From: a virus | IMG/VR virus record: IMGVR_UViG_3300020188_000012 | Location: 1 to 49,864 of that record | Length of the DNA: 49,864 bases | Direction: 5' to 3' (one strand) | Shown: in pieces, positions 2,392-46,480 of the stretch | Layout of the letters: every line of letters starts with the position of its first letter | How positions within the stretch are numbered: position 1 is the first letter of the stretch | The notes under the pieces: generated by a model | What the model was told of the DNA's origin: nothing | Database searches by the model: none | Seen by the model: only the letters and a program-made list of their open reading frames with translations | Translations under genes and position numbers: made by a program

Positions 2392-4096
2392 TTGAAATAT
2401 GACTAAAGTTTTTAATCTTCTCAAATTTAATGGTGCTTCGGAACTTGTCTGCGAGTGCATCCTGTTTGTGACTAATCACAAATACGTTCTCATCACCAAG
2501 TGTGTTTAGAATCTTTAGGAACTCATCTGTCCCTGTACCGTCCAAAGAACTATCGAAGATTTCATCAAGTATCAACAGGTTCGTGTTCGTACTGTTCTTC
2601 ATCTTTGCAACGGCTCTCCAAGTAAAGAGTAGTGCAAGGTCAATACGCATCTTCTCACCTTCGGAGAATGATGCATATGTAAACTCATCCCGATATCGTG
2701 ACTTTATGGTTTCGTTGAAGTTCTCGTCCAGTGTGAAGTTCACATAGAATTCCATCGACGTTAGATAGGTGTTGATGAGTTTGTTCATTACTGGAAGATA
2801 CTGTTTGATAATCTTTGTCTTGATACCACTATCCTGTAGCATGTTACGAACTGCATCAGAATACGTCTGGTCTTCACGCAACTTACTTCTCTGTTCGTCA
2901 AGTCCCTTCATCTTTTTGTTTAGACGTTTCAACTTGTCATAGTCAGACTTACTCAGTTCTTCATCTGCAAGTTGTGCAACCTCTGTAGATAGTGTGGCAT
3001 TGAACTTCTCTAGTTGCACGATAGATTGATTGTTCTTTGCAACCTGTACTTCGTTCTCTCGTATCTTCTCAACAATATCATTGATAACACTCTGTCGGTT
3101 CTTTGCATCTGAAATCTTGTCCTCAAGTTCTTCCAATGCAGAAGAGAACTTGTCCACCTCAAACATCTTGTCTTCAATCATACCAGACTTGAACGCCTCG
3201 TCAATGTGTTGTTGACAGGTAGGACAGTCTTCGTTGTTCTCAAAGAACGATACCACACTAGAGTGTGACTTGTGTTTCTCACGAAGAGTGGACTTCAGAT
3301 TGTTTAACTTACTCATCGTTGAGACAATCTTATCCTTGTCTGCAATCTCAGTGAGCCAGTTGTCCTTCTGTTGATTTAGTTTCTCATTCTCAGAGTTACG
3401 ACTGAATACTTCTTCCTCATTACTTGAAATCAGAAGTGTCTTCTCTTCAATCAACTTGTCCTTATTCTGTTTCACCTCAGAGATATACTTCTCCTGTAGA
3501 GAAATCTTCTCTCTGTTTAGTTCGATGTTGTAGTCCATCTCTCGTATGTCTTCAGAGATAGTCTTCATTCTCTGTTTGACCAACAGGTTCATAAGCGAGA
3601 AGATTTGGATGTCAAGGATTTCCTCAACAACCTCACGGCGGTGTTTTGCCTTCAACTGCATAAAGGGAATGAATGTCGAAGAACCGAGAATAACAACCTG
3701 TGTGAAACTCTGGTAGTTCAACTTTAAGATTTGCTGTTCTAGATACTTCTGGTAATCACGGGCATTCGCATCCTGATTGTACATCTTACCATTGATGTAA
3801 ATCTCAAACTTGTTTGGTTTGATACCACGAACAACCTTGATTTCTTTCTTACCGATATTGAACTCTACCTCTACTTCGCAATTACCGTTATTAATTGAGT
3901 TAAGTAGTTGGGGTTTATTGATATTACGAAAAGGCTTACCAAACAAACCGAAACATAGAGCATCAAGAATAGTAGACTTACCCGCACCGTTCTCTCCAAT
4001 AATGAGTGTGGTAGAACTTCTGTCTAACTGTATCTCTGTAAAATTATTACCTGTGGATAGGAAGTTTCGCCAACGTACATATTTAAAATGAATCAA
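2384..4096 (-). CDS. 46: Recombination endonuclease subunit gp46 (SbcC/Rad50-like ATPase)
   Basis: This is the SMC-type ATPase subunit of the gp46/gp47 nuclease that resects DNA ends for recombination-dependent replication. The 570-aa protein has Walker A GENGAGKS at 34-41, a long coiled coil, a zinc hook CPTC at 291-294, a second coiled coil, an ABC signature-like SFSEGEKMR and Walker B LLILDEIFDSSLD near the C-terminus. Length fits the family. The start codon is TTG at 4096, in a TTGA overlap with the gp47 stop; no ATG is available upstream of the conserved first strand, so TTG is the supported start. It follows gp47 directly, as expected for partners made in fixed ratio. Confidence 0.96.
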   Translation of the reverse strand: MIHFKYVRWRNFLSTGNNFTEIQLDRSSTTLIIGENGAGKSTILDALCFGLFGKPFRNINKPQLLNSINNGNCEVEVEFNIGKKEIKVVRGIKPNKFEIYINGKMYNQDANARDYQKYLEQQILKLNYQSFTQVVILGSSTFIPFMQLKAKHRREVVEEILDIQIFSLMNLLVKQRMKTISEDIREMDYNIELNREKISLQEKYISEVKQNKDKLIEEKTLLISSNEEEVFSRNSENEKLNQQKDNWLTEIADKDKIVSTMSKLNNLKSTLREKHKSHSSVVSFFENNEDCPTCQQHIDEAFKSGMIEDKMFEVDKFSSALEELEDKISDAKNRQSVINDIVEKIRENEVQVAKNNQSIVQLEKFNATLSTEVAQLADEELSKSDYDKLKRLNKKMKGLDEQRSKLREDQTYSDAVRNMLQDSGIKTKIIKQYLPVMNKLINTYLTSMEFYVNFTLDENFNETIKSRYRDEFTYASFSEGEKMRIDLALLFTWRAVAKMKNSTNTNLLILDEIFDSSLDGTGTDEFLKILNTLGDENVFVISHKQDALADKFRSTIKFEKIKNFSHISNG

Positions 4097-20611: not shown

Positions 20612-22615
20612 TTAACCTCCTACCTCACTAAACGATACGCCCGTTCTTACGGCAATAAAGTTCAGTGTAATAAAGTTAATGGAACGAGCAGGTTTGATGT
20701 AAATATCACCAATAAACTCGTTACGGTCAATCACCTCACCAGTGTTGTTTGATGCGTCACAAACTACACGGAAGTCGGTAATACCTCTACGACCTTGGAC
20801 ATCACGAAGGAATGGTTCAACTAGGTTACGGAACTGTGCCCGAGTGAACTCATCGTTGAATTCGAAGAGTTGGAACTTAGCAGCAGTTGCGATTGCCTTC
20901 TCAAGAACCAAGAACAACCGACGCACGTTAATGCGGTCAAATGCACTTGGTTTTGAAAGTGCAGTCTTATCACCGAATAGAACCACACCTTGGCCTGGGA
21001 AGTCCGTTACAGGATTAACTCTTGCACGGTATAGACGATCTCTCTCTGCCTTCGTTGGATTGAAGGAGAGTTTGATTGCACCACGGACATTACCACGATT
21101 GAAACCAGCAGGTGAGAACCAAGGGTCTGCAACACCATCTGTGTATGCACAAAGACCAGCAGTATCACCATTTAGAGGAACGAAGCGATACACATCGTTG
21201 TACTTGTCGTAAATGTACTTGTATCCACTGTCGTAAACCATGTAAGATGATGATGGGCAGAGGTTAAATGCATCAATCACATTGTCTGCCTGTGTGATGT
21301 TAGATGTAACATTCACTGTAGCAGCACGATATGGTGATACGAAACCAACACAGTCTTTTCTCAACTCAACTAGGTCTGTAATCATGGTCACATGAGTGTC
21401 CTGTGCAGAAGCACTATCTGCAACCGCTGAACTAGGACCACCTAGAACTAGGTTGATGTCAAGTGATTCTGTGTCTGCAAACTTGTCGTATGCAAGAGCA
21501 AGTTCACCAGCAGTTACTGCATAGTCATCTGTACCACTTGTAAGAGTAACCACAACAGGTGCATTGACAGCAGTGTATGCTGAAGTTGTATCCGTACCCC
21601 AGTTTGTACCAGCAGATGTGTGATCCATCCAGTAAATGTAGTTAGACTGACGGAAGATAACGTCTGGATAGTAGTTACCACCCCCCTGTGCAGTCTTTGC
21701 AACAGGGTTCTTAGACAGGTTGGCAAACACTTCAATAATACCGTTTGTACGGTTACCAGCAACATCTACGTCGAAACCAGTGATATCACCAGTTGTGTCA
21801 TAAACACAAACATGGAGTTCATCACCAGTACCACGGCCGTTTGCAGTGGCCCAATCTGATGTGCCTGGGGCAGCATCAAACAGGTCATAGAAACGCCAAC
21901 GTCTGCGAATGAAACTGTTATCAGGAATGATTGCCTTAACACCAGAACCGTTTGGATCGTCTTTTAGACGAACTGTAAGGTCATTTGAAGAAATTGCAGT
22001 AATTTCGTACTCGTTTCCTTCGTCACCAGTGTTAAATGTGAATAGTGTTGCGTCTGAAGATGCATCTGCACTTGAGAAGGAGATAAGATCACCAACACTA
22101 AAGGCAGTACCGTCATCAACACCGATTGTTGTTGAACCAGCAGCATCTTCACCAGTTGTCTGGTTAGAAGAACCGAGGTTCTCTTCGAATGCGGTAGCAG
22201 ATGGGCAGATGGAAACACCGATACCATTTGCCCAAGCACCGGCAGTTCTTGCAGCCCACTCACCAACAGTTGCCTGTCCAGTGGAATATGCGTTAAGATA
22301 ATGGTCTGTGTCCCGAATAAGGACCGCAGAACCAGATGCAACAGCGTTTACAATACCTGATTCTGCACGAACTACTCGTAGTGCATCACCGTATTGTAGA
22401 AAGCTTGATGCAGTAAACCAAAATTCAAAATTTGAACCATTAGGTTTACCAAAGACTTGTACCAATTCCTGTTCAGATGAGATTGCCGTTACAGTAGAAA
22501 CTGGTCCTCTTTCAAAAGGACCGGCAATAGCACCGATAGAAGTTGATACAGCGGGAACGACATTCGTAAGATCAATTTCTCTTACATGAACGCCAGGTGA
22601 AACTAGAAATCCCAT
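20612..22615 (-). CDS. 18: Tail sheath protein gp18
   Basis: The 667-aa subunit of the contractile sheath. The N-terminus GFLVSPGVHVREIDLTNVV and the AIAGPFERGPV segment are the usual start of myovirus sheath proteins. The C-terminal third (NPTKAERDRLYRARVNPV, FPGQGVVLFGDKT, INVRRLFLVLE, VVCDASNNTGEVID) is the conserved sheath domain with the arms that link neighbouring subunits. AAGGAG precedes ATG 22615, in a leader of about 35 nt from the late promoter at 22656-22663. Confidence 0.97.
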   Translation of the reverse strand: MGFLVSPGVHVREIDLTNVVPAVSTSIGAIAGPFERGPVSTVTAISSEQELVQVFGKPNGSNFEFWFTASSFLQYGDALRVVRAESGIVNAVASGSAVLIRDTDHYLNAYSTGQATVGEWAARTAGAWANGIGVSICPSATAFEENLGSSNQTTGEDAAGSTTIGVDDGTAFSVGDLISFSSADASSDATLFTFNTGDEGNEYEITAISSNDLTVRLKDDPNGSGVKAIIPDNSFIRRRWRFYDLFDAAPGTSDWATANGRGTGDELHVCVYDTTGDITGFDVDVAGNRTNGIIEVFANLSKNPVAKTAQGGGNYYPDVIFRQSNYIYWMDHTSAGTNWGTDTTSAYTAVNAPVVVTLTSGTDDYAVTAGELALAYDKFADTESLDINLVLGGPSSAVADSASAQDTHVTMITDLVELRKDCVGFVSPYRAATVNVTSNITQADNVIDAFNLCPSSSYMVYDSGYKYIYDKYNDVYRFVPLNGDTAGLCAYTDGVADPWFSPAGFNRGNVRGAIKLSFNPTKAERDRLYRARVNPVTDFPGQGVVLFGDKTALSKPSAFDRINVRRLFLVLEKAIATAAKFQLFEFNDEFTRAQFRNLVEPFLRDVQGRRGITDFRVVCDASNNTGEVIDRNEFIGDIYIKPARSINFITLNFIAVRTGVSFSEVGG

Positions 22616-22655: not shown

Positions 22656-22663
22656 TATTTATA
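22656..22663 (-). promoter_or_regulatory. T4-type late promoter for gp18-gp19
   Basis: A perfect TATAAATA on the minus strand 41 nt before the gp18 start. It is divergent to the plus-strand late box at 22707-22714, the two being 43 nt apart, so the island and the sheath genes fire in opposite directions from one short intergenic region. Confidence 0.75.
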
Positions 22664-22706: not shown

Positions 22707-22714
22707 TATAAATA
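22707..22714 (+). promoter_or_regulatory. T4-type late promoter for the plus-strand island (leaderless)
   Basis: A perfect TATAAATA followed by ACATT and ATG at 22720. The predicted start of transcription is the A of ATG, as at 13447 and 26583. It may also drive the ABC genes by read-through, since no terminator is seen after the HNH-like gene. Confidence 0.7.
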
Positions 22715-22719
22715 ACATT

Positions 22720-23019
22720 ATGAATGAACATTACGAAAAATACAAAGAAACCATCAAAAAGGTATCTAGGAGAAACTACCAGAAACGTAAGATACTTCTG
22801 GAAGAGTTTCTAGTTGATAAATCTTGTAGACACTGTGGTGAGTCTGAGCATGTGTGTCTCAAGTTCTATCCTCATGATGCAGAGATACGCAAGGTATCAA
22901 AGAGAGTTGGAACAAGTGATGATAGCCGAAAGGAAGTCTTTCATCTCATAGATCAGTCAACCATCCTCTGTTACAACTGTTATATCAAGAAACATCATGA
23001 TTTAATCGAATTTATTTGA
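22720..23019 (+). CDS. HNH-like zinc-binding protein
   Basis: The 99-aa product from ATG 22720 (an in-frame GTG at 22696 lies before the promoter and is rejected) has two Cys pairs: CRHCG and CYNCYIKKHH. Between them are LKFYPHD and a V-x-x-x-x-x-x-S-x-x-x-x-x-E pattern. This is the frame of small phage HNH proteins (C-x2-C, L-x-F-x-H, C-x-N-C-H), but the usual His after the last Cys is Tyr here, so nuclease activity is uncertain. It is the first gene of the plus-strand island and HNH genes often mark insertions in phage genomes, so it may have brought the ABC genes in; that is inference. Confidence 0.65.
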   Translation: MNEHYEKYKETIKKVSRRNYQKRKILLEEFLVDKSCRHCGESEHVCLKFYPHDAEIRKVSKRVGTSDDSRKEVFHLIDQSTILCYNCYIKKHHDLIEFI

Positions 23020-23025
23020 CCTATA

Positions 23026-23031
23026 TATAAT
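23026..23031 (+). promoter_or_regulatory. Possible -10 box before the ABC binding-protein gene
   Basis: TATAAT lies 33 nt before the start codon of the binding-protein gene, but no good -35 hexamer is found 16-18 nt upstream. The TTGACC at 23016 is too close to serve. It may be a weak or activator-dependent promoter; the ABC genes may simply be read from the late promoter at 22707. Confidence 0.25.
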
Positions 23032-23063
23032 TATAGTGATTTGAGTCATAAAGGAGTATCATT

Positions 23064-24032
23064 ATGAAATCATTAATTTATGGGGTATTTACCCTACTAC
23101 TATGCATGTCTTCAGTTCATGCATCAACACCCGCAAAATTTATTATCGACACTGGACCCCTTGGAGTCCACAGTTGGTTTCTGAAAGGCATCAAAGACGG
23201 TGCATTTTCTAAACGTGGACTAGATATTGAATTTGTAGGAAAGGGTCCAGGCAGTTATAAATCTGGTCTGACGCTCGCAACTGGAAGAGCAGATATTGGA
23301 TATCATGACTATAGTGGTGTAGTTCTTGCTAATAGTAAATCAGATGACCCTAAAGTTTTAGCAATCTTTGTCGTTGATGACAAGTTACAAAATGCAGTAC
23401 TTACACTTAAATCATCAGGTATTAAGACATTCGATGATTTAAATGGACGTAAACTTGGTAGTCATCCCACTAGTTTTACCAACAAGGCACTTTCTACTGT
23501 AACATCTGCCAAATGGGTGGATGTTCCTACACACATGCCTGCCCGTGTCCCTGCACTTATTTCTGGACATGTTGATGCTATCGGTGGGTTTCCGACATCT
23601 GTTCTTTTCAATCTGGAAAAGGCAGGGGTTGGTGTTGACGAGTTAAACATCCTTAAACTTAGTGACCACTTTCCAATGGCAGTAAGTCGAGTAATTTCTG
23701 TAAATGCAGATTGGGCATCAGAAAACCCACAAGCAGTGAAAGTTCTTCGTGAAGTGTCACGAGAACTGTTAAATGATTTTATTAAAAATCCTGCGGCAAG
23801 TGTGTCTGCATTGGAAGGTCCAATTGTATCCACAGATAAAAAAGTGAACACTGAAATCAGAAGGGCTCAATACGGTATTGACGAACTTGTTATGACACCA
23901 TTTGTACAGAAGAATGGAATTAGTAATGCTGGTGCGGTTAGTCCTCGTTTAAGTGAATATACAAATCTACTAGTGGAAAAATTGAATTTACCAACTCGTC
24001 ATCCAGACAACAAGTATTTTGTTCTAGATTAA
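23064..24032 (+). CDS. ABC-transporter periplasmic substrate-binding protein (NMT1/ThiY-SsuA-TauA type)
   Basis: The 322-aa product starts with a clear signal peptide (MKSLIYGVFTLLLCMSSVHA, cleavage after A20), so it should act in the periplasm of an infected Gram-negative cell. The mature part follows the NMT1/THI5-like binding-protein family: GVHSWFLKGIKDGAFSKRGL, GRADIGYHDY, AVLTLKSSGIKTFDDLNGRK and LISGHVDAIGGFP. Relatives bind thiamin precursors, taurine, alkanesulfonates, nitrate or riboflavin; the ligand cannot be read from sequence. The start has AAAGGAG 7 nt upstream. Its stop shares one base with the permease start (TAATG). A phage-borne importer subunit of this type is unusual, phosphate-binding PstS being the familiar phage case. 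Confidence 0.88.
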   Translation: MKSLIYGVFTLLLCMSSVHASTPAKFIIDTGPLGVHSWFLKGIKDGAFSKRGLDIEFVGKGPGSYKSGLTLATGRADIGYHDYSGVVLANSKSDDPKVLAIFVVDDKLQNAVLTLKSSGIKTFDDLNGRKLGSHPTSFTNKALSTVTSAKWVDVPTHMPARVPALISGHVDAIGGFPTSVLFNLEKAGVGVDELNILKLSDHFPMAVSRVISVNADWASENPQAVKVLREVSRELLNDFIKNPAASVSALEGPIVSTDKKVNTEIRRAQYGIDELVMTPFVQKNGISNAGAVSPRLSEYTNLLVEKLNLPTRHPDNKYFVLD

Positions 24033-24766
24033 TGAAACACACATTTGTAACTATTTCTGTAGTTGTACTAACATGGGAACTATTGATAAAGGGTGGTTAT
24101 ATTCCTGGCTTATGGGATATAACCACCACCTTCTTTGCGTTATCAGTTGATCCTAATTTTCTTTATAACCTATGGATTAGTTTGTTGAGACTCGTTGTAG
24201 GTTGGTCAATTGGAATGTTGATTGGAACTACCATCGGCATCTTCATGGGCAGTAACATCCATGTAAAGAAACTTACAATGCCATTGGTCAGTTGTTTGTT
24301 TCCCATTCCAAAAATCGCACTATTACCTCTGTTCATAGTTCTTCTAGGAATAGGGGAATTGAGCAAGATAACAACTATCTTCATTGGTGCGTTCTTTCCA
24401 AGTATATTGAACGCATACAATTCTGTCATAAGAACACCCACCATCTATGTGGAAGCATCTCGTTCTTGTGGTGCGGGTTATTGGCCCACTTTGCGGAAAA
24501 TAGTTTTACCATATAGTATGCCGACGATAATCGCAGGATTTAGGACAAGCGGTAGTTTGTCATTGGTTTTGTTGGTTGCAGCAGAAATGTTAGGTGCAAA
24601 ATATGGTTTGGGAAACTGGATATTCATGACCGGCGGAGAAATGGATTTTGCAGAAATGTTTGCTGGAATAATCTGGCTCAGTCTAATTGGTTTAGGAATT
24701 GGTTGGGGTACAGAGTTTTTGAAACGTAGATTTTGTAATTGGAGCACATATGGTGAGGGTGTTTGA
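24032..24766 (+). CDS. ABC-transporter permease (SsuC/TauC/ThiX type)
   Basis: The 244-aa inner-membrane protein has about six hydrophobic segments and the binding-protein-dependent permease domain. The EAA loop, which contacts the ATPase, is intact: YVEASRSCGAGYWPTLRKIV followed by LPYSMPTIIAGFR, matching E-A-A-x-x-x-G-A-x-x-x-x-x-x-x-x-V-L-P. AEMLGAKYGLG and WGTEFLKRR near the end are also typical. It is coupled to the binding-protein gene by TAATG. No ATP-binding subunit gene is in the window, so it would need a host ATPase. Its stop TGA directly abuts the gp17 stop on the other strand with no gap. Confidence 0.9.
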   Translation: MKHTFVTISVVVLTWELLIKGGYIPGLWDITTTFFALSVDPNFLYNLWISLLRLVVGWSIGMLIGTTIGIFMGSNIHVKKLTMPLVSCLFPIPKIALLPLFIVLLGIGELSKITTIFIGAFFPSILNAYNSVIRTPTIYVEASRSCGAGYWPTLRKIVLPYSMPTIIAGFRTSGSLSLVLLVAAEMLGAKYGLGNWIFMTGGEMDFAEMFAGIIWLSLIGLGIGWGTEFLKRRFCNWSTYGEGV

Positions 24767-26410
24767 TTACCAATCACTCTCATAGTTTCTGACAATAGGT
24801 GACCAACGAGTTCCATACTCGTCAACCATCTCACCAATATTCTCGTCTTCTAGTCCTGTGACTACAAAACCAAACGGAGCCATATCCTGTTCTAGTGCGT
24901 CCTGTTGTTCTCGCATCATAGTTCTACGAATGTCATTATCAGTGAGTTCTTTGAAGTACTGTTGGTCTGTCATCCATGCAAAGATGAACAGACATGCAAC
25001 CAAGTCATCGTTACATCCATCGTCTGCTTCATGGGAGTGTCCCTTTACGATGAATGTAGACAGTTCGTTGATACAGTCGTAATCTTCTATGATGAGTTTA
25101 TTATCCTCTACCAACTGTTTTAGGTTTGAACACCCAATCTTCTTGACTGCCTTGGTTGTTCTCACACCCAACTGAGCCCTACCACCAGAGAACCCACCAC
25201 CAAGAACCTGTCCTGCTCGTCCACGCATGGATGCCATAACTAGGTTATCATACTCTAGGTCAAACTGCATTGCGTTTGCGACCTGTTCACCAATGTCATT
25301 GACCTCAATCAATACGAATGCTTGATTGTATGCCCTTGCAACATCGTATATCTTTGAGGGAAAGATAAGAGGTTTCAGTTCGTTGTCTCTAAACTTTGCA
25401 ACCAACTTGTATGGCATCTGAGTTACATCAAACACACAGAATGCAGAATAGTCGTTTGCAGTACCTCTAGAAACGTCAGCAGTGAGGACGTAGGTGTGTC
25501 CTTGTTGTGGGGGTATGTGAACATCCAACCCTGCATTAGATTGTTTAGGTTCTCTATAAGTCATCACACGAAGTTTGGATGGTGAGATAAGTGTGTCAAT
25601 AGAACCAAGAAACTCACACTCAAACTCTGTGTTGAACTGCGCCTCTGACGTATTCTTGATTGTCTCTGCCTTCCATGCCTCGTCTCTACCAGGCACTTCT
25701 GACCAGTGAACCTCAATAGGAACGTATGTGTTACGTCCCTCTTCTGCATCCACCCACAACTTGTAGAACATATTCATACCGTGTGGTGTAGAAACAATCA
25801 TTACCTTCGTTGATTTACCTGATGAAATTGTGGGGTACACAGAGGAAAAGAACTGCTCAGCAACGTTGGCCGGAACATAAGCAAATTCATCAAGAAATAT
25901 GATGTTATAAGACCCACCACGCACAGCACTAGCACTAGTAGATGAAGCGAGTATCTTTGAACCATTTTCCAACTCCAAGGAACCTTTGTTCCATGCCATA
26001 ACACCTTGTTGCAACCATTTGGGCAAATGTTCGTATGCCAACTGCAAACGACCAAGAAGGTCACGAGCAGTTGCGGCCTTGTTCGCAAGGATTGCAACGT
26101 TCACACTATCGTTAAACAGAACGTAATGTAAAAGGTATGAGATAATTGTTGTGGACTTACCAGACTGTCTAGGAAGTTTGCAGATGGTAAAACGATTACT
26201 ATGGAAGGTTCCCACCATCTCCTTCTGAAAATCATACATCTTAAACGGTACAAGTCCCTCGTCAAGAGAAACAATCCTGACGTAGTTCTGAATGAAGTAC
26301 AGGGGGTCTTCCATGCACCTCTGATATTCTTGGAGTTCTTCTTTCGTCCAAGACTGTGCAACGTTAGCTCGTTTGAGGTTTGGGTTTCCTAGATAGACTT
26401 GTTCAGTCAT
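24767..26410 (-). CDS. 17: Terminase large subunit gp17
   Basis: ATPase and nuclease that packages DNA into the prohead. The 547-aa product has Walker A RQSGKST (81-87), Walker B NIIFLDEFAYV, the coupling motif STPHGMN, and in the nuclease domain TADVSRG, LIEVNDIGEQ and the C-terminal DDLVACL with catalytic Asp residues. It lies downstream of gp16 as in T4, but separated from it by three cargo genes. The ATG overlaps the stop of the 58-aa gene as ATGA. It converges with the plus-strand ABC permease gene with no intergenic base. Confidence 0.97.
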   Translation of the reverse strand: MTEQVYLGNPNLKRANVAQSWTKEELQEYQRCMEDPLYFIQNYVRIVSLDEGLVPFKMYDFQKEMVGTFHSNRFTICKLPRQSGKSTTIISYLLHYVLFNDSVNVAILANKAATARDLLGRLQLAYEHLPKWLQQGVMAWNKGSLELENGSKILASSTSASAVRGGSYNIIFLDEFAYVPANVAEQFFSSVYPTISSGKSTKVMIVSTPHGMNMFYKLWVDAEEGRNTYVPIEVHWSEVPGRDEAWKAETIKNTSEAQFNTEFECEFLGSIDTLISPSKLRVMTYREPKQSNAGLDVHIPPQQGHTYVLTADVSRGTANDYSAFCVFDVTQMPYKLVAKFRDNELKPLIFPSKIYDVARAYNQAFVLIEVNDIGEQVANAMQFDLEYDNLVMASMRGRAGQVLGGGFSGGRAQLGVRTTKAVKKIGCSNLKQLVEDNKLIIEDYDCINELSTFIVKGHSHEADDGCNDDLVACLFIFAWMTDQQYFKELTDNDIRRTMMREQQDALEQDMAPFGFVVTGLEDENIGEMVDEYGTRWSPIVRNYESDW

Positions 26411-26587: not shown

Positions 26588-27589
26588 CTATTTATATCTA
26601 ACAAATGTGCCGTCCTCATATACAATACTATTAAGAACATAATGACCTTGATCAACACCTAGATATCGTGATTGTTTCTTATATACTAAAGGAAAAGAAC
26701 TCTCTTTTTGTTTTGTGTTTAGATATTCCTCATTTTTATCATAGTCATATATGTATTTTTTCATTGGCCACTTATATGTTCCATAGTCACCATTATGTCC
26801 AGCATATGGATTAGATAAAGACCACTGTTCAAAATAGTCTGTGTAGAAAAATGCACGCTCTAGGTGGTGTGTAGAGGGGTCTTTTAAAAATCTTAGTGAG
26901 TGATGTCTTGTAGACAAATCATCTATACTTCTAGCAAGCCACCAAAGTAACTCCCAACATGTCTCTGGCACATATGGAGATGTATCAATATATTTCTCAA
27001 TAGTGTTTAAAATATCAGAGTCTTTTATAATATTAATCCAATCACTATCTTTAATCTTAAAGAATTCTTCCATAGACATTGTTGATGATATTGCAAGAAA
27101 TAATTCGTCTCCACCGTTACCATTCACATTAATTGATTGTCCATTCCACAACTCAATATTATCGTAGATATAGTTCTTATGAGAATGCCACTGTAAATTA
27201 ATTTTCTTATTCACCAACAAATCATAAAAACGTGGATTTTCTTGCACACTGTTTGTTGATAGATAAACTGTAAGACTTGTATCCAACCTTCTAGTTTTCA
27301 ATAGACTTACCAATGCACATGTGCTGTCTATACCACCAGACCACCATAATCGTATTGGTTTACCAATATCCCATAATTCTACAGCCCTGCGATTAGTCAA
27401 CTCTTCAAATGTACCTACAGGTTTTGGTGAGATATTATCTGGTAATGGGTTCTCTACCAAATCTAGTTGATTATCAAACCCATGTCTAAAACGTGGAGAG
27501 TGTAAACCAAAACTAGTTGCTAATTTATACTCATCTCTTGCACTTATTTCTGGAAAAGAATTTAGATGATAATATATAATCTTACTCAC
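26588..27589 (-). CDS. Asparagine-synthetase-like PP-loop protein without glutaminase domain
   Basis: The 333-aa product carries an ATP-pyrophosphatase loop, WWSGGIDSTCALVSLL, and NGNGGDELFLA, the G-x-G-G-D-E-L-F motif of asparagine-synthetase-type synthetase domains. The N-terminal Ntn glutaminase domain is missing, so it would use free ammonia or an amine nucleophile, or act on another acyl-adenylate. The product is unknown. The start is GTG at 27589, overlapping the DUF924 stop by 8 nt with no ATG alternative. The last codons TAT AAA TAG double as the late promoter of the next unit, giving a protein ending in RYK. Confidence 0.75.
   Translation of the reverse strand: MSKIIYYHLNSFPEISARDEYKLATSFGLHSPRFRHGFDNQLDLVENPLPDNISPKPVGTFEELTNRRAVELWDIGKPIRLWWSGGIDSTCALVSLLKTRRLDTSLTVYLSTNSVQENPRFYDLLVNKKINLQWHSHKNYIYDNIELWNGQSINVNGNGGDELFLAISSTMSMEEFFKIKDSDWINIIKDSDILNTIEKYIDTSPYVPETCWELLWWLARSIDDLSTRHHSLRFLKDPSTHHLERAFFYTDYFEQWSLSNPYAGHNGDYGTYKWPMKKYIYDYDKNEEYLNTKQKESSFPLVYKKQSRYLGVDQGHYVLNSIVYEDGTFVRYK
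26589..26596 (-). promoter_or_regulatory. T4-type late promoter embedded in a stop codon
   Basis: A perfect TATAAATA; with the next G it is read by the upstream PP-loop gene as Tyr-Lys-stop (TAT AAA TAG). After GAAAC comes the ATG at 26583, so the predicted mRNA for the 58-aa protein and gp17 is leaderless. Confidence 0.75.
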
Positions 27590-27605
27590 TTTTCCCCCTC
27601 AACAT
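27580..27605. repeat. Direct repeat, left copy, flanking the DUF924 gene
   Basis: A 26-bp stretch matching 28220-28245 at 24 positions, with a perfect 14-nt core AAAAGTGAGTAAGA (minus strand). It covers the end of the DUF924 gene and the GTG start of the PP-loop gene. Confidence 0.8.
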
Positions 27606-28229
27606 ATCAACAATCTCTGCTTCGTCCTTGGTCATACCCCAAGTCGGCGGGATTTTGAGATACTCTTCTTCTTCCGCCGTGTTCTCTCTTCCCAGAACCT
27701 TGTTGCGATGGGGGAACCGGCCGAACCGGGCGATTACATCACGGTGATCAATCGATGAGGCAAGCGACTTTTCGTCGTCAAACGCTTTGTATTTTTCAAC
27801 CGCAATGTCCTGATCGCTCAGTTTCTCGCTATGTACCAGCGGCAGGTAAAAGAATTTGCGCGCCTCGAGACTTATAGCAGCATCGAAGTCCTGCGCGAGG
27901 GCGTGATGCGACAAATTGCAGGCTTTGGCATCCGTGTGAAACGCCTTGCCGGTGCCTCGATAGATATTGCGCGGGAACTGGTCGAGTGAAATTACCAGTG
28001 CCAAGCATTCCGAGGGTGTTTCTTTCAGATGGTCCAACTCACCCGCAGCAGCACATTCATGCACGGAGGCAAACCGGGCGATCAATTCTGCATCGAATTC
28101 GGGCGTAGATTTAAACCAGATACGTCGTTTTTTCACACTCTCAGACATATCGGATGTGCCGAACCAGAACTTCAGGATGTCTTTGGCAATGGAGTCCATT
28201 AGGTCTTTGGTGTAGTTATTCTTACTCAC
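27582..28229 (-). CDS. DUF924 family protein
   Basis: The 215-aa product belongs to DUF924, a soluble helical family of bacteria with no established function. Recognisable parts are ILKFWFG near the start, WFKSTPEFDAELIARFA, ALVISLDQFPRNIYRGTGKAF (the family core) and VIARFGRFPHRN. By eye its G+C is about one half, while neighbouring genes are about one third. A 26-bp direct repeat flanks it, so it looks like a recent gain from a bacterium. The phage-side start is GTG 28229, overlapping the gp16 stop; ATG 28199 (MDSIAKDILK) probably was the original bacterial start, and the ten codons before it are AT-rich like the phage. Confidence 0.88.
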   Translation of the reverse strand: MSKNNYTKDLMDSIAKDILKFWFGTSDMSESVKKRRIWFKSTPEFDAELIARFASVHECAAAGELDHLKETPSECLALVISLDQFPRNIYRGTGKAFHTDAKACNLSHHALAQDFDAAISLEARKFFYLPLVHSEKLSDQDIAVEKYKAFDDEKSLASSIDHRDVIARFGRFPHRNKVLGRENTAEEEEYLKIPPTWGMTKDEAEIVDMLRGKSE

Positions 28230-28245
28230 TTTTACCCTTCAACAT
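28220..28245. repeat. Direct repeat, right copy, flanking the DUF924 gene
   Basis: Partner of 27580-27605, 640 bp away. It covers the gp16 C-terminus (MLKGKSE, against MLRGKSE in DUF924) and the GTG start of the DUF924 gene. Removing one copy plus the DUF924 gene would restore a gp16 stop overlapping the PP-loop start in the same way. Confidence 0.8.
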
Positions 28246-28647
28246 TTTTTGTAACTCAGCGGTGCTACCAACAAACAATGCATTAGTTACACTCTTAGGT
28301 CCGTGGTCTGGAACCTCTTTGAGTTTCTTCATCTTCTCTTGTAGGTCACCTAGTTTCTCAGTGACCTCTGCAACATTCTTAATTAACTGTCCTGCAACCT
28401 CGTATGCTCTTGGATGCTCACCCTCTCTTGCAAGTTCAAGGATACCCTCAATCGCAGTGGAACCCTGTTCAACCAACCGATAGAAATTCTCTCTTTGGTA
28501 TTTGTAGTCAGCATCAATATCTTCACCACCTTCTATCTCTACTGGATAACGGGAAACATCAGACATTTTAGGCTTTTGGTTTAAAGATGACTCTGGTGGA
28601 ATAACATCCCCAACCACTCCAAGTGCTTTCTCTATTTCATTTACCAT
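28222..28647 (-). CDS. 16: Terminase small subunit gp16
   Basis: Ring-forming regulator that recognises DNA for packaging and stimulates gp17. The 141-aa product has the gp16 layout: an acidic start, DADYKYQRENFYRLVEQG matching the D-D-Y-x-x-x-R-x-N-x motif of T4 gp16, a central coiled coil (PRAYEVAGQLIKNVAEVTEK) and TNALFVGSTAELQKML matching N-A-T-V-F-M-G-S-P-T-E-L. The start has AGAGG upstream. It lies after the asparagine-synthetase-like pair and not directly after gp15 as in T4, so cargo was inserted on both sides. Confidence 0.9.
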   Translation of the reverse strand: MVNEIEKALGVVGDVIPPESSLNQKPKMSDVSRYPVEIEGGEDIDADYKYQRENFYRLVEQGSTAIEGILELAREGEHPRAYEVAGQLIKNVAEVTEKLGDLQEKMKKLKEVPDHGPKSVTNALFVGSTAELQKMLKGKSE

Positions 28648-28662
28648 ATTAATTCCTCTGTA

Positions 28663-28670
28663 TATTTATG
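28663..28670 (-). promoter_or_regulatory. Probable late promoter variant for gp16
   Basis: CATAAATA differs from the late box TATAAATA only in the first base. It lies 16 nt before the gp16 start codon in a short gap, overlapping the last codons of the previous gene; the predicted leader of about 10 nt would include AGAGG, close to the 5' end. Confidence 0.4.
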
Positions 28671-30045
28671 ATGGGGCCCAAGCTTTATATGGAAGTTTTA
28701 TTTCTCTATCGCGTAAATATTTTTTTTGAAAAACTTTGGGTGTTTGATTTTTAATCCATGGCATAACATGCAACCATTCTTGTACGAACTTTTTATCATA
28801 AAATACATTTCTATTCTCCAATCCATAGGCCAATGACAAAGTTTCAAACAGGTCAAGTAAACGTCTTGCTTGTCCTCCATAAAAGTGTTGCCACGGAAAT
28901 ACTGTTGATAAATCCTCTGGCCAGATAGAAAAACCAGCTGGGTTTTTATTCATAATGCCGTTGTACTTCAAAGGATACCCAGCTGGTAACGCTGGATAAT
29001 TATCAAAAATTTCATCTCCTCCGTTTCCAGTAAATATAACTTTACTGTTAAATTCAGAAATACATTTTTCTCTCATTACCCACTGAGCTCGCAGACGTAA
29101 ATTTGCAGACACTAATCTGTTTCTATTATTACTCCATTTGGATTTTGATTTTTTTTCATCCCAATTGGGGGGACAATCGGTGGGGAAGCTTTCTATCTTA
29201 ATATTTTTATTATATGTGTCTGTATATTTAATAATTTGATTCAATGATTCAATATCTTCGTTCCACGGACTTGCTAAACAAGTTACACTGTTAAAATGTT
29301 TTTTATGGTCAGATAAACACAATGCAATAGGTGAACTATCTAAACCACTACTGAGAAGTATAGTTAAATTTTCTGTATAGCGTTTAAGAACTGCTTCTTC
29401 GAAGGAATTGGTAAGATCATCCAAATTATCTTTATACTGATTTAAATCCCATTTATGAAGTTCTGTATTAACTGGTTTCAATATACCAGTTTTTACATTA
29501 TAATTATGATGGCTATTATGTGGAATTCTATAGAATGTGTTATTCCATTCAGTATCGTTGTACATAGCAAACTTGAGATCAAAGGGTTGAGACACGCCGG
29601 GCGGACCAAATCTTCCACCTTTAGGGTCTGTCATTGGAAAAGTACTGAAATAGAAATAATCATCAATTTTATAATAAAATGCTTGTCTTGTACTCCACGG
29701 ATCAGTAAATAAATCTATATTATTAGTTTTCTCATCATAAATTATGAACAAGAATTCGCCATCTAAATATTCTGTAAATTTGTCACCATATTCTAAATAT
29801 TTGTCAATGCAAAAAAAGATACTACTGAATAATGGATGACGATTATAAATTTCTCCAATCAATATATAATACTTGTTATTATGTTTGAAAGGTTGTACAA
29901 CATCTTTTCCAGTAATACTTGATAGGTGGTGTGTTATATAAACACCGTTAACATCTATAGTATTACTAGCATCTGGTCCACCCAACTTCAAATAATCATC
30001 AATTAATATTGAGTTTGGGTTGTTAGTTATTTTGAAAGTAGACAT
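28666..30045 (-). CDS. Asparagine-synthetase-like protein, glutaminase Cys lost (Ser2)
   Basis: The 459-aa product has the two-domain layout of AsnB. The N-terminal Ntn-type domain is recognisable from IGEIYNRHPLF, LDGEFLFIIYD and LFTDPWSTRQAFYY; the synthetase domain has LLSSGLDSSPIAL (PP loop) and FTGNGGDEIFDNY. It begins MSTFKI, so the catalytic Cys2 that AsnB exposes after Met removal is replaced by Ser, and glutamine hydrolysis is doubtful. The neighbouring paralogue begins MCTFKI. It may still form amide or other acyl bonds from ammonia or an amine. The late box ending the upstream gene lies 4 nt before its ATG, so it likely has a near-leaderless mRNA. Confidence 0.82.
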   Translation of the reverse strand: MSTFKITNNPNSILIDDYLKLGGPDASNTIDVNGVYITHHLSSITGKDVVQPFKHNNKYYILIGEIYNRHPLFSSIFFCIDKYLEYGDKFTEYLDGEFLFIIYDEKTNNIDLFTDPWSTRQAFYYKIDDYFYFSTFPMTDPKGGRFGPPGVSQPFDLKFAMYNDTEWNNTFYRIPHNSHHNYNVKTGILKPVNTELHKWDLNQYKDNLDDLTNSFEEAVLKRYTENLTILLSSGLDSSPIALCLSDHKKHFNSVTCLASPWNEDIESLNQIIKYTDTYNKNIKIESFPTDCPPNWDEKKSKSKWSNNRNRLVSANLRLRAQWVMREKCISEFNSKVIFTGNGGDEIFDNYPALPAGYPLKYNGIMNKNPAGFSIWPEDLSTVFPWQHFYGGQARRLLDLFETLSLAYGLENRNVFYDKKFVQEWLHVMPWIKNQTPKVFQKKYLRDREIKLPYKAWAPS

Positions 30046-30048
30046 AAT

Positions 30049-31326
30049 CTATTTATACCGTTTACGGTTGCTTTGGAGGTTGCCTTGGAACCCAAATCCA
30101 ACATCGGGGTTAGACCATTCGAATATACTACATTTTCTTAGATACTCTTTAGTAATATGTTTGTATTCTATATTTTTATAATGCGGTTTCATATTTAACC
30201 AATCTTGTGCGAGTTGTTTATCATAAAAAACGCTTCTTACTTCTTGTCCAAAAAAACAACAATATGTGTAATGATAATCTATGGAATTTATATAACCATA
30301 TAATTCTCTTTTATCTTCATACAATCTTCTGTATGGAAAGATTTCATTTTGATTTTCAGGCCATAAATCAAAATCAGAATTAGTTTTACTCCTATACATA
30401 TCAATAGTTTCATCACTACCGCTACCCATAAGAATTACCTTACTACCAAAAGACAATGCAAGTTTTCTTAGTTCAGATGATATTGTATGTTGTTGAGTCG
30501 GATAATAATTTTTATCTCTCATATGTTCCTCTGTTACATAAGTATGGTTAATATAATCCCCACAATACTCAACTACTTTGTTAATTGCTTTTTGATTTTC
30601 AAAATTCTTAACAATGGATGTGAGTGCATTAAAATTTTTCTTGTTTTTTGCTAAACAACATGCAACAGCCAAACTATCAACTCCGCCGCTCATAAAAAGT
30701 GTAGAATTGGGATACCATCTTTTATTTACAGCATCTTCGAATGACATGATAACATTATCAAGGTTATCACTATTCTGTTCTAAATTCCACTTGTGTAAAT
30801 GATCATTTACAATATTAAATTCTTTTATATCAATATCAAATACAACATGTGAATTTGCAGGCAATCTGTAGTGACCTTCCAAATTTTTAAAATATTTGAA
30901 AATGTCTGGTGTTTTGTTTATTAGAGAAGTAAAATAAAAATTATCACCATCTTCAAAGTAATATGCTTGTTTTGTAGAAAATGGGTCAGTGAAAAAATGA
31001 ATTTTTCTATTATCAACAACAATGAATAGGAATTCACCATCTAAATGTTCTGTAAATTTATCACCATACTCATTGTATTTTTCAATACCAAAATAGATAT
31101 CACTTGGCCAAGAATCATCGTAATTATAAATCTCACCGATTAATATAAAATATTTCCCACCGTGATAAATTGGTTGTGGTGTTATTTCACCAGTAATATT
31201 TAACAAGTGATGTGTTATGTAGATACCGTTAAGTTCTACGGTATTTGATTTTGTAGGACCACCATCTCTCAGATATTGATCTACAAAAATTTCATTTGAG
31301 TCATTAGTTATTTTAAAAGTACACAT
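30049..31326 (-). CDS. Asparagine-synthetase-like protein with Cys2
   Basis: The 425-aa paralogue of the next gene (shared TFKITN start, NGIYITHHL, IGEIYN, LDGEFLFI, FTDPFSTKQAYY). It begins MCTFKI, so the Cys2 nucleophile of glutamine amidotransferases is present. The synthetase domain has MSGGVDSLAVACCL, but the second motif reads GSGSDETID in place of G-x-G-G-D-E-x-F. This may alter substrate binding. The two genes thus divide defects: one keeps Cys2 with a weaker synthetase motif, the other the reverse, so they might work as a heteromer; this is inference. It ends KRYK because TATAAATAG is the late promoter of the following gene. Confidence 0.82.
   Translation of the reverse strand: MCTFKITNDSNEIFVDQYLRDGGPTKSNTVELNGIYITHHLLNITGEITPQPIYHGGKYFILIGEIYNYDDSWPSDIYFGIEKYNEYGDKFTEHLDGEFLFIVVDNRKIHFFTDPFSTKQAYYFEDGDNFYFTSLINKTPDIFKYFKNLEGHYRLPANSHVVFDIDIKEFNIVNDHLHKWNLEQNSDNLDNVIMSFEDAVNKRWYPNSTLFMSGGVDSLAVACCLAKNKKNFNALTSIVKNFENQKAINKVVEYCGDYINHTYVTEEHMRDKNYYPTQQHTISSELRKLALSFGSKVILMGSGSDETIDMYRSKTNSDFDLWPENQNEIFPYRRLYEDKRELYGYINSIDYHYTYCCFFGQEVRSVFYDKQLAQDWLNMKPHYKNIEYKHITKEYLRKCSIFEWSNPDVGFGFQGNLQSNRKRYK
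30050..30057 (-). promoter_or_regulatory. T4-type late promoter embedded in a stop codon
   Basis: A perfect TATAAATA; with the next G it encodes Tyr-Lys-stop at the end of the upstream gene. ATG 30045 follows 4 nt later (GATT), close to the predicted transcription start. Confidence 0.7.
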
Positions 31327-44390: not shown

Positions 44391-45350
44391 TTATACCTGT
44401 GTAATCTTGAAGGTGTATGTTGAGATGGTTGTGGGTGAACCATCTGGAAATTCCTGTGCCCGATAATCATCAAGACCAACCTGTAGAGTCTGATAGTTAC
44501 CACTGCCATTAAGTCTTGTATCAACCATTGCCGTACCTCTGGAGTTACCAGAACCATTAATGTTATATGATAATTTATTCCCTGCCGTATCTTCTGCTGC
44601 ATAGTGACGAATATCATTCTTTAGAATTGCATTAAAAGAACTCGTATCAGAAGTCAAATCAACCTGATTTAAGTTACCATCTGTGTCTACAAGAAGAAGT
44701 GCTTGTGATGGAAAAGACCTTGCATCACTACGTCTCTGTAGATAATAACTCGTGATGGTAGTGGGTTGGTCAAGTGTTTCTGGAATACCAGCAGCAGTAT
44801 ACAAAGTTGTATCTGCTCGTGTATCAAGAAAGATTGGAGTGGACGAACCAGATACTTCAGTATAGTTTGCAACTGATGCAGAGGTAGAGATCGTATATGT
44901 TCCGTTAGTATACGCACTCTCACTAGCGGCAACCATTCCAGTTAGAGTTGCATAGATAAAGGTGTCCACATAGTCTGTGGCAGACATTGCAACAATATCA
45001 TTACCATCATAGTATGCAGGGAATGCAACGTTGTTTGTATCACCAGTTGCACTGAGTGCCGTATTATATGTTGGTCCTGTAACCTTGTCGTAGTTGACAG
45101 TCACAGTTGAAGGTTCTGCTGTTGTTGCCTCATTAGGAAATGCAGATGCATTAGTTGAGTATGCACCAGCCTGTAGTCTGGTATCTGCCATTGTTGGGGA
45201 TAAAGTACCACTAGAAGCAACGACACTTACCGTTACAGAAGGAGCTGTGCCGTACAGATACGCAATGTACTGTTTCCACTCGTTAATCTGAGTGGCATTC
45301 ATCTCTTGAATATCTGTTCCATTATAGTATATTGGTGTTCTTACAGTCAT
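44391..45350 (-). CDS. Putative tail-fibre/structural protein with internal repeats
   Basis: The 319-aa product is rich in Thr, Ser, Ala and Tyr, as in fibre proteins. It has an internal repeat: PIYYNGTDIQEMNATQINEW near the start recurs as PAYYDGNDIVAMSATDYVDT about 110 residues on, and DTR occurs three times in similar places (MADTRLQAG, FLDTRADTT, MVDTRLNGSG). No catalytic motif is seen. The start shares a base with the upstream stop (TAATG), so it is translationally coupled to the fibre-like gene before it. Confidence 0.65.
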   Translation of the reverse strand: MTVRTPIYYNGTDIQEMNATQINEWKQYIAYLYGTAPSVTVSVVASSGTLSPTMADTRLQAGAYSTNASAFPNEATTAEPSTVTVNYDKVTGPTYNTALSATGDTNNVAFPAYYDGNDIVAMSATDYVDTFIYATLTGMVAASESAYTNGTYTISTSASVANYTEVSGSSTPIFLDTRADTTLYTAAGIPETLDQPTTITSYYLQRRSDARSFPSQALLLVDTDGNLNQVDLTSDTSSFNAILKNDIRHYAAEDTAGNKLSYNINGSGNSRGTAMVDTRLNGSGNYQTLQVGLDDYRAQEFPDGSPTTISTYTFKITQV

Positions 45351-46258
45351 TATCCAATTCCATTAATTGTTTTAAGTGTTGTGCCGCCTGAGTTTTTAAC
45401 TAACAGAGTTGCAGTTGCTGTTGCGGCAATTGTTCCAGTAAAAGTTGCATTACCATTTGATGCAAACGTTAAAGCATTTGTTGTGGTTGCAGGACCAATC
45501 GTACCAGTGTCATCAACAATCAATCCACCTACTCTAGTTGATCCAGGCGTAATTGTCAAGTCACCTGATGATGCACCAGTTGCGGTTGTTGTACCAAAGA
45601 TAACTTGGTCTGCACTTTCATCCCAACCAAGGAACACATTGTCACCAGTAGAACCACGTTCAATTACAATACCAGCATCACTGGATGCAGACGTAGTGCC
45701 TGTTCCAAGTTCAATGAGGACATCTTCAATCGTTGTATTTGTTGCACTATTTGTTACTGTTGAACCGTTAACTGTGAGGTTACCTGTGATTGTAACATCG
45801 TCTGGGAGTCCGATTGTGATTGTACCAGAAGACTCTGATACCTCAACTTCGTTTGATGTACCAGCAAAAGTAACTGTACCACCAAGTGATGCAGAGGTTG
45901 ATGTTCCACCACTTGCACCAAATGTAATACCACTGTTTGTTAGAGAAGAGTTACCAATATTACTTAGAGTATTAGATGCACCACTTATTGTTTTGTTTGT
46001 AACTGTTGCAGTACTATCTGAGGTAAGAACAGTACCACTAGCATCAGGTAGAGTAATAGTTCTATCGGCGGTTGGGTCTGCTGCAACAAGAGTGGTTTCG
46101 AAATCATCTACTGTAGCACCCTCAAAAACAACACCGTCAGAGAAACCTAGTGATGCAAGAGTAACACTACTTACATCTGATCTAAGAGTGTTAAACTGTT
46201 CTTTGAACTGTTCAAGAGAACTATCAAGTGAAAGTTCTGTTGCTGTTACTGTTGCCAT
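45350..46258 (-). CDS. Tail-fibre-like structural protein
   Basis: The 302-aa product has low sequence complexity (Ser, Thr, Gly, Ala, Val), almost no Cys or Trp, and the DRTITLPDASGTVLTSDS and VTNKTISGASNTLSNIG segments that recur in tail-fibre-type proteins of marine phages. The C-terminus, with LLVKNSGGTTLKTINGIG, resembles the closing part of such proteins. It likely forms a trimeric beta-rich fibre or its attachment. AGGAT precedes ATG 46258. Confidence 0.72.
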   Translation of the reverse strand: MATVTATELSLDSSLEQFKEQFNTLRSDVSSVTLASLGFSDGVVFEGATVDDFETTLVAADPTADRTITLPDASGTVLTSDSTATVTNKTISGASNTLSNIGNSSLTNSGITFGASGGTSTSASLGGTVTFAGTSNEVEVSESSGTITIGLPDDVTITGNLTVNGSTVTNSATNTTIEDVLIELGTGTTSASSDAGIVIERGSTGDNVFLGWDESADQVIFGTTTATGASSGDLTITPGSTRVGGLIVDDTGTIGPATTTNALTFASNGNATFTGTIAATATATLLVKNSGGTTLKTINGIG

Positions 46259-46480
46259 TTACTTATCCTCTACCAGTTTCAATAACATATTCTTAATTTC
46301 ATGCATTTCGGATTTAAGACTATTTAGTTCTCTTGTAGTCTCACGAATTTCATCACGTTGTCTTTGAGCCTCTTCTGCACGTTTCTTTGCAATGAGGTAT
46401 GCAGACTTGTTTGTGTTCACAATTGCATTTGATCTTTCATCACGAACCAAATCATTATGTCCTTCAACTTGTATTCTCAT
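46259..46480 (-). CDS. Small coiled-coil protein, 73 aa
   Basis: The product begins MRIQVEGHNDLVRDERSNAI and continues as a long helix with a heptad pattern (AEEAQRQRDEIRETTRELNS, then LKSEMHEIKNMLLKLVEDK). It probably forms a coiled coil and may connect or fold fibre parts. It is separated from the large structural gene by one base and from the next stop by none, inside a fibre operon. The family is not recognised. Confidence 0.6.
   Translation of the reverse strand: MRIQVEGHNDLVRDERSNAIVNTNKSAYLIAKKRAEEAQRQRDEIRETTRELNSLKSEMHEIKNMLLKLVEDK

Follow-up and report, generated by a model that had tools for sequence, protein, structure and literature searches.

Cyanophages carry pstS (PMC3429862), and complete pstSCAB clusters have been described in soil phages and in Campylobacter phage A18a (PMC10987575). 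These phage-encoded ABC importer parts include the substrate-binding protein (SBP) and have been read as boosting uptake during infection. The locus described here also encodes parts of an ABC importer with an SBP, but its SBP is of the NMT1 type rather than of the PstS family, it is accompanied by one permease and by no ATPase gene at the locus, and the pair sits in a hot spot which is also used by a TRAP importer. The bacterial SsuABC, TauABC, NrtABCD and ThiXYZ systems share with it an NMT1-type SBP and a PF00528 permease with an EAA loop. Unlike these systems, the phage operon has no ATPase gene and its products do not reach the cut-offs of the SsuA, TauA, SsuC and TauC models; the phage SBP is about 27% identical to its best plasmid homologues. 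The alternative cassette of the slot resembles the TAXI-TRAP system VcGluP/VcGluQM (PMC11574862) in having a TAXI SBP and a fused DctM, but it is phage-borne and takes the place of the ABC pair. Phages Melnitz and HTVC008M (PMC9004378) have the same terL-gp18 order and Melnitz has an HNH-like gene in the slot, but neither carries a transporter there. New here are the pairing of an NMT1-type SBP with a permease in phages, the constant position of this pair within an exchangeable slot, and a TAXI-TRAP alternative in that same slot.

Results

The window analysed is the entire linear IMG/VR record of 49,864 nucleotides, a fragment of an incomplete phage genome. It comes from a T4-like marine myovirus; the best cultured relatives of its terminase large subunit (TerL) are those of OM43 phage Melnitz (71%) and Pelagibacter phage HTVC008M (68%). 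Coding on the plus strand is confined to 22,707-24,766 and comprises three genes (22720-24766), and the remaining convincing genes are on the minus strand. A long plus-strand open reading frame at 45306-46367 was rejected as the shadow of a minus-strand fibre-like gene. The preliminary description had reported a plus-strand island between gp18 and gp17, against the strand of its neighbours, and all of its elements were found in place:

20612-22615, minus strand: gp18 tail sheath (PF04984), left flank of the slot
22656-22663, minus strand: late-promoter-like TATAAATA for gp18 (motif match), divergent from the cassette promoter
22707-22714, plus strand: T4-type late-promoter-like TATAAATA just before the HNH-like gene, the sole plus-strand copy in the window
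22720-23019, plus strand: HNH-like C4 zinc-finger gene (PHROG 3106), resident leader gene of the slot
23020-23063, plus strand: SBP leader, in which CCTATATATAAT and the Shine-Dalgarno sequence AAAGGAG are conserved (from the sequence and related loci)
23064-24032, plus strand: secreted NMT1/THI5-like SBP of 322 amino acids (PF09084), signal peptide at about 23064-23123
24032-24766, plus strand: type I ABC importer permease of 244 amino acids, TauC/SsuC/NrtB-like (PF00528)
24452-24511, plus strand: permease EAA loop EASRSCGAGYWPTLRKIVLP, docking site for the ATPase (from the sequence)
24767-26410, minus strand: terminase large subunit gp17, TerL (PF03237), convergent right flank of the slot

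The SBP stop and the permease start overlap as TAATG, the coupling originally noticed, and the stop codons of the permease and TerL abut with zero spacer. Elsewhere in the window, a DUF924 gene (27582-28229) has 50% GC compared with 39% for the phage and may be a recent acquisition from a host. Two adjacent paralogous genes without known function (28666-30045 and 30049-31326, about 39% alike) vary in copy number in relatives L019 and L020.

The late promoter proposed ahead of the island withstood comparison with chance and with relatives. The window has 8 copies of the motif TATAAATA where 2.7 would be expected, a number that 0 of 100 shuffles reach, and the cassette copy is kept in 20 of 20 class A loci read (class A being the window's own group). 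The same 20 loci keep the SBP leader TATATATAAT with its AAAGGAG ribosome site. Because of these promoter and leader motifs, we infer that the cassette is expressed late.

The SBP matches Pfam NMT1 PF09084 over residues 39-245 (E 1e-20, 74.8 bits, cut-off 20.5). Its start, MKSLIYGVFTLLLCMSSVHA/S, resembles a signal peptide by inspection rather than by a predictor, with K2, a hydrophobic core and a VHA-S site; a start of this kind was also seen by inspection in all A1 members and in class B, the other T4-like phages described below. The claim of a secreted NMT1-type binding protein thus holds, the signal peptide being putative. The suggested sulfonate and taurine ligands gained no support: the SBP is far under the cut-offs of the curated NCBIfam models for SsuA (TIGR01728, 42.3 bits vs. 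163.5) and TauA (TIGR01729, 29.5 bits vs. 304). The best PDB matches are 4nmy (E 3e-9), which we take to be a thiamin-bound SBP of C. difficile, and ThiY 3ix1 (E 4e-4); both align with the N-terminal half and fix no ligand. An AlphaFold model built with 14 sequences had a low pLDDT of 41, and no riboswitch was matched by Rfam in the window. The nearest plasmid homologues are 26-28% identical and some of them lie close to ureide or purine genes. A ligand read from these neighbours was rejected because the homologues are too distant. As a weak first guess, the ligand may be a nitrogen heterocycle akin to ureides or to precursors of thiamin.

The permease matches BPD_transp_1 PF00528 (E 5e-24, 85.5 bits) and contains the intact EAA loop attributed to it; its score is below both the SsuC and the TauC cut-offs of NCBIfam, and its nearest solved structures are CmpB/NrtB. 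Class A permeases keep the loop, and so do three of the four from class B (two class B rows were read directly). The exception is G002, whose atypical DVTVSCKGNLWTVVKYVVIP is the sole such loop among the phage permeases read. A search for a transporter ATPase found none in the 49.9 kb window, part of an incomplete genome, none in class A contig G001 (50.7 kb), and none in class B contigs G012, G013 and G014. An ABC_tran match at 3953-4033 of the window was rejected as a transporter ATPase because it is gp46/SbcC-like. The scan of viral contigs yielded the ATPase of G002, one 37% match and one short partial 37% match.

The SBP was found in 21 further viral contigs with 80-100% identity, and wherever the flanks are visible the order is gp18 (minus), HNH-like gene, SBP and permease (all plus), and TerL (minus). 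The search for the island at the gp17/gp18 junction of related marine contigs, advised in the preliminary description, thus gave a positive answer. Against the window, the SBPs of the class A group have dN/dS values of 0.15-0.29 and the permeases values of 0.10-0.20, which indicates that both genes are under purifying selection. The pair accordingly has two marks of auxiliary metabolic genes, location in a viral genome and purifying selection, and the view of it as phage-borne and driven by a late promoter gains from both the shared junction and the low dN/dS. In L004, synonymous divergence is 0.05 for the SBP, 0.29 for the permease and 0.40 for TerL; such differences between neighbouring genes indicate that recombination, too, exchanges the cassette. 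Two loci show other changes. In L007 (7704-9753), an intein-like stretch (CVDGETVV ... VISHNC) splits TerL near residue 265, where the reading frame breaks up into two ORFs, and there is an additional gene between the HNH-like gene and the SBP. In L020 (3507-4468), the SBP is frameshifted at about residues 60-66, while the permease and flanks are intact.

The content of the slot was then counted in the best 80 TerL relatives among the matches listed, 72 of which were informative. These are counts and not carriage frequencies: 63 slots have the HNH-like gene without a transporter, 2 have the ABC pair, 6 have the TRAP cassette, and 1 has other cargo. TerL and the HNH-like gene are usually 7-12 bp apart. 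The slot is empty in L070, the neighbour of the window on the TerL tree, and in other relatives with almost identical terL. Two contigs (L071/L072) have a deletion scar in which the end of the permease gene, about 27 bases, is joined to the SBP leader at an imperfect 7 bp repeat, with about 1.7 kb deleted. The scar indicates that the cassette can be lost, and such frequent loss shows that it is dispensable. A tree of 84 TerLs requires the ABC pair to have been gained or lost at least 5-6 times and the TRAP cassette at least 2-3 times. By this comparison of relatives, the slot between the HNH-like gene and terL is a hot spot which gains and loses cargo; neither this nor the TRAP cargo figures in the preliminary description.

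The HNH-like protein has weak PHROG matches to HNH endonucleases (PHROG 3106, E 6e-6). In an alignment of 67 rows, the four cysteines of CxxC/CxNC are invariant and the last histidine is present in 15 only, the window copy being one that keeps it. An HNH-like gene does lead the island, as had been described, with the nuance that most relatives miss the last histidine of the motif. The idea that this gene was the route by which the island was gained was rejected because relatives carry the gene beside an empty slot, as in the 63 of 72 above and in Melnitz, whose homologue (57%) lies at the same junction. Assignment as an HNH homing endonuclease was likewise rejected, as the last histidine is lost in most rows and the gene is mostly found without cargo. 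The gene is best described, from its distribution, as the resident of the slot.

More than 20 contigs (L089, L097, L139, L141, L165-L184) have a TAXI-TRAP cassette in this slot, behind the same HNH-like gene and on the strand that the ABC pair also uses, opposite to the flanking genes. It consists of a TAXI SBP (PF16868) with a signal peptide which overlaps a fused DctM (PF06808, 9e-53), both over the cut-off, and at several loci the HNH-like gene runs into the start of the TAXI gene. Together the two proteins are predicted to be a complete secondary importer, which would require no ATPase. In L183/L184 all that is left of the cassette is an in-frame fragment, with the junction at an 8 bp repeat. 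Against the phage collection the cassette gave two partial 40% matches in unannotated faecal records and nothing more, and our literature search found no relevant paper on phage-borne TRAP transporters. Other slot cargo includes an oxygenase-like gene (L127/L128, 639 bp insert) and, in L137, a methyltransferase accompanied by another gene. In L113 and L149 a spacer of 150-172 bp holds a small Cys-rich gene resembling DUF1289.

The coupled pair also occurs in four contigs from T4-like phages of another group (class B: G002, G012-G014), where it has a different genomic place, lies on the same strand as its neighbours and precedes an uncharacterised gene. Compared with the window, their SBPs are 53-64% and their permeases 66-72% identical. 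That these phages keep the coupled pair elsewhere suggests that it is retained as a unit. In G002 the SBP and permease occupy 5.5-7.3 kb. Some 22 kb beyond this permease, at 28.8-29.7 kb, the contig encodes an ABC ATPase. This ATPase (28839-29672; 10087-10917 in L038) is of the SaoA/TauB/NrtD kind and lies right behind a leaderless NMT1-like protein (27938-28867). The leaderless protein (L150-L164) has relatives in 14 other contigs, and in those read they lie behind gp23, which encodes the major capsid protein; the ATPase was found in 0 of these 14 contigs, and the family had no match in the phage collection. In L158 the next gene after the leaderless one is aspartate-carbamoyltransferase-like.

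A pattern scan of 84,980 species genomes, limited to what the pattern can detect, found no close cellular relative and one 30% partial match only. Tblastn against the phage collection gave weak matches only, mostly to unannotated or host-like records. In trees, the phage SBPs form one clade and the phage permeases another, and their nearest relatives differ among the few plasmid operons sampled. This suggests that the pair may not derive from one known operon.

Discussion

We think that the locus is probably a late-expressed, exchangeable nutrient-uptake cassette in the terL/HNH hot spot, the ABC form of which borrows an ATPase encoded by the host or elsewhere by the phage. The late promoter at 22707 would drive the HNH-like protein, the periplasmic NMT1-type SBP and its permease. 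The permease would dimerise and its EAA loop would recruit an ATPase of the SsuB/TauB/NrtD type, either from the host or from elsewhere in the phage genome. The hybrid importer would then bring in a small metabolite while virions are produced, presumably to the benefit of the phage. Host ATPases common to several importers are established for some systems, e.g. MsiK. With an intact EAA loop and no ATPase in the window, a hybrid importer on a host ATPase is the simplest working model, and the use of a host ATPase by the ABC pair is plausible.

An importer encoded wholly by the phage, with its own ATPase in the unsequenced part of the genome, is rather unlikely. G002 may be such a case, since it encodes the SBP and permease and, apart from them, an ABC ATPase, and its loop DVTVSCKGNLWTVVKYVVIP could reflect adaptation to that ATPase; moreover, the class A contigs are fragments. 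However, the loop argument is one sequence, no ATPase was found in the window, G001, G012, G013 or G014, and outside G002 the viral contigs gave just the two 37% matches. The missing ATPase could also mean that the SBP and permease have a role other than import, such as competition with transporter subunits of the host, a change to the envelope, or exclusion of other phages whose receptors are uptake systems. Late expression beside structural genes would suit such a role, as would the patchy presence in near-identical phages, which is typical of accessory functions. We consider it improbable, because the same slot holds a complete TRAP importer with SBP and DctM intact, and because two phage groups keep the pair coupled, its dN/dS is low and the EAA loop is mostly intact; for exclusion there is no evidence.

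The scars in L071/L072, the TRAP remnants in L183/L184 and the many empty relatives are what one would expect of neutral passenger DNA, picked up by chance and now being lost. The dN/dS of 0.10-0.29, the preserved promoter, Shine-Dalgarno sequence and coupling, and the sharing of the slot by two unrelated importer classes make this very improbable. A chimeric assembly, the objection raised in the preliminary description, can be set aside because 21 other contigs, from different data sets, carry the pair at the gp18/terL junction; with no close cellular relative in the pattern scan, the chance of a chimera or a host island is negligible. The uptake cassette remains our preferred reading.

More tentatively, and at slightly less than even chances in our judgement, this phage lineage may keep a promoter-equipped uptake slot in its late region. 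The slot would be filled interchangeably by an ABC half-importer working on a foreign ATPase or by a self-sufficient TAXI-TRAP, and the module would be lost or changed by short-repeat deletion and recombination to match hosts and nutrients.

Phage nutrient-uptake genes have so far been mainly single pstS genes and pst clusters. The swapping of two unrelated importer classes in one slot of closely related phages suggests that selection acts on uptake itself and not on one particular gene. Related phages with an ABC pair, a TRAP cassette or nothing in the slot are a natural experiment. The slot makes it testable whether a host ABC ATPase drives a phage permease, and which dissolved nutrients limit the late infection of marine bacteria.
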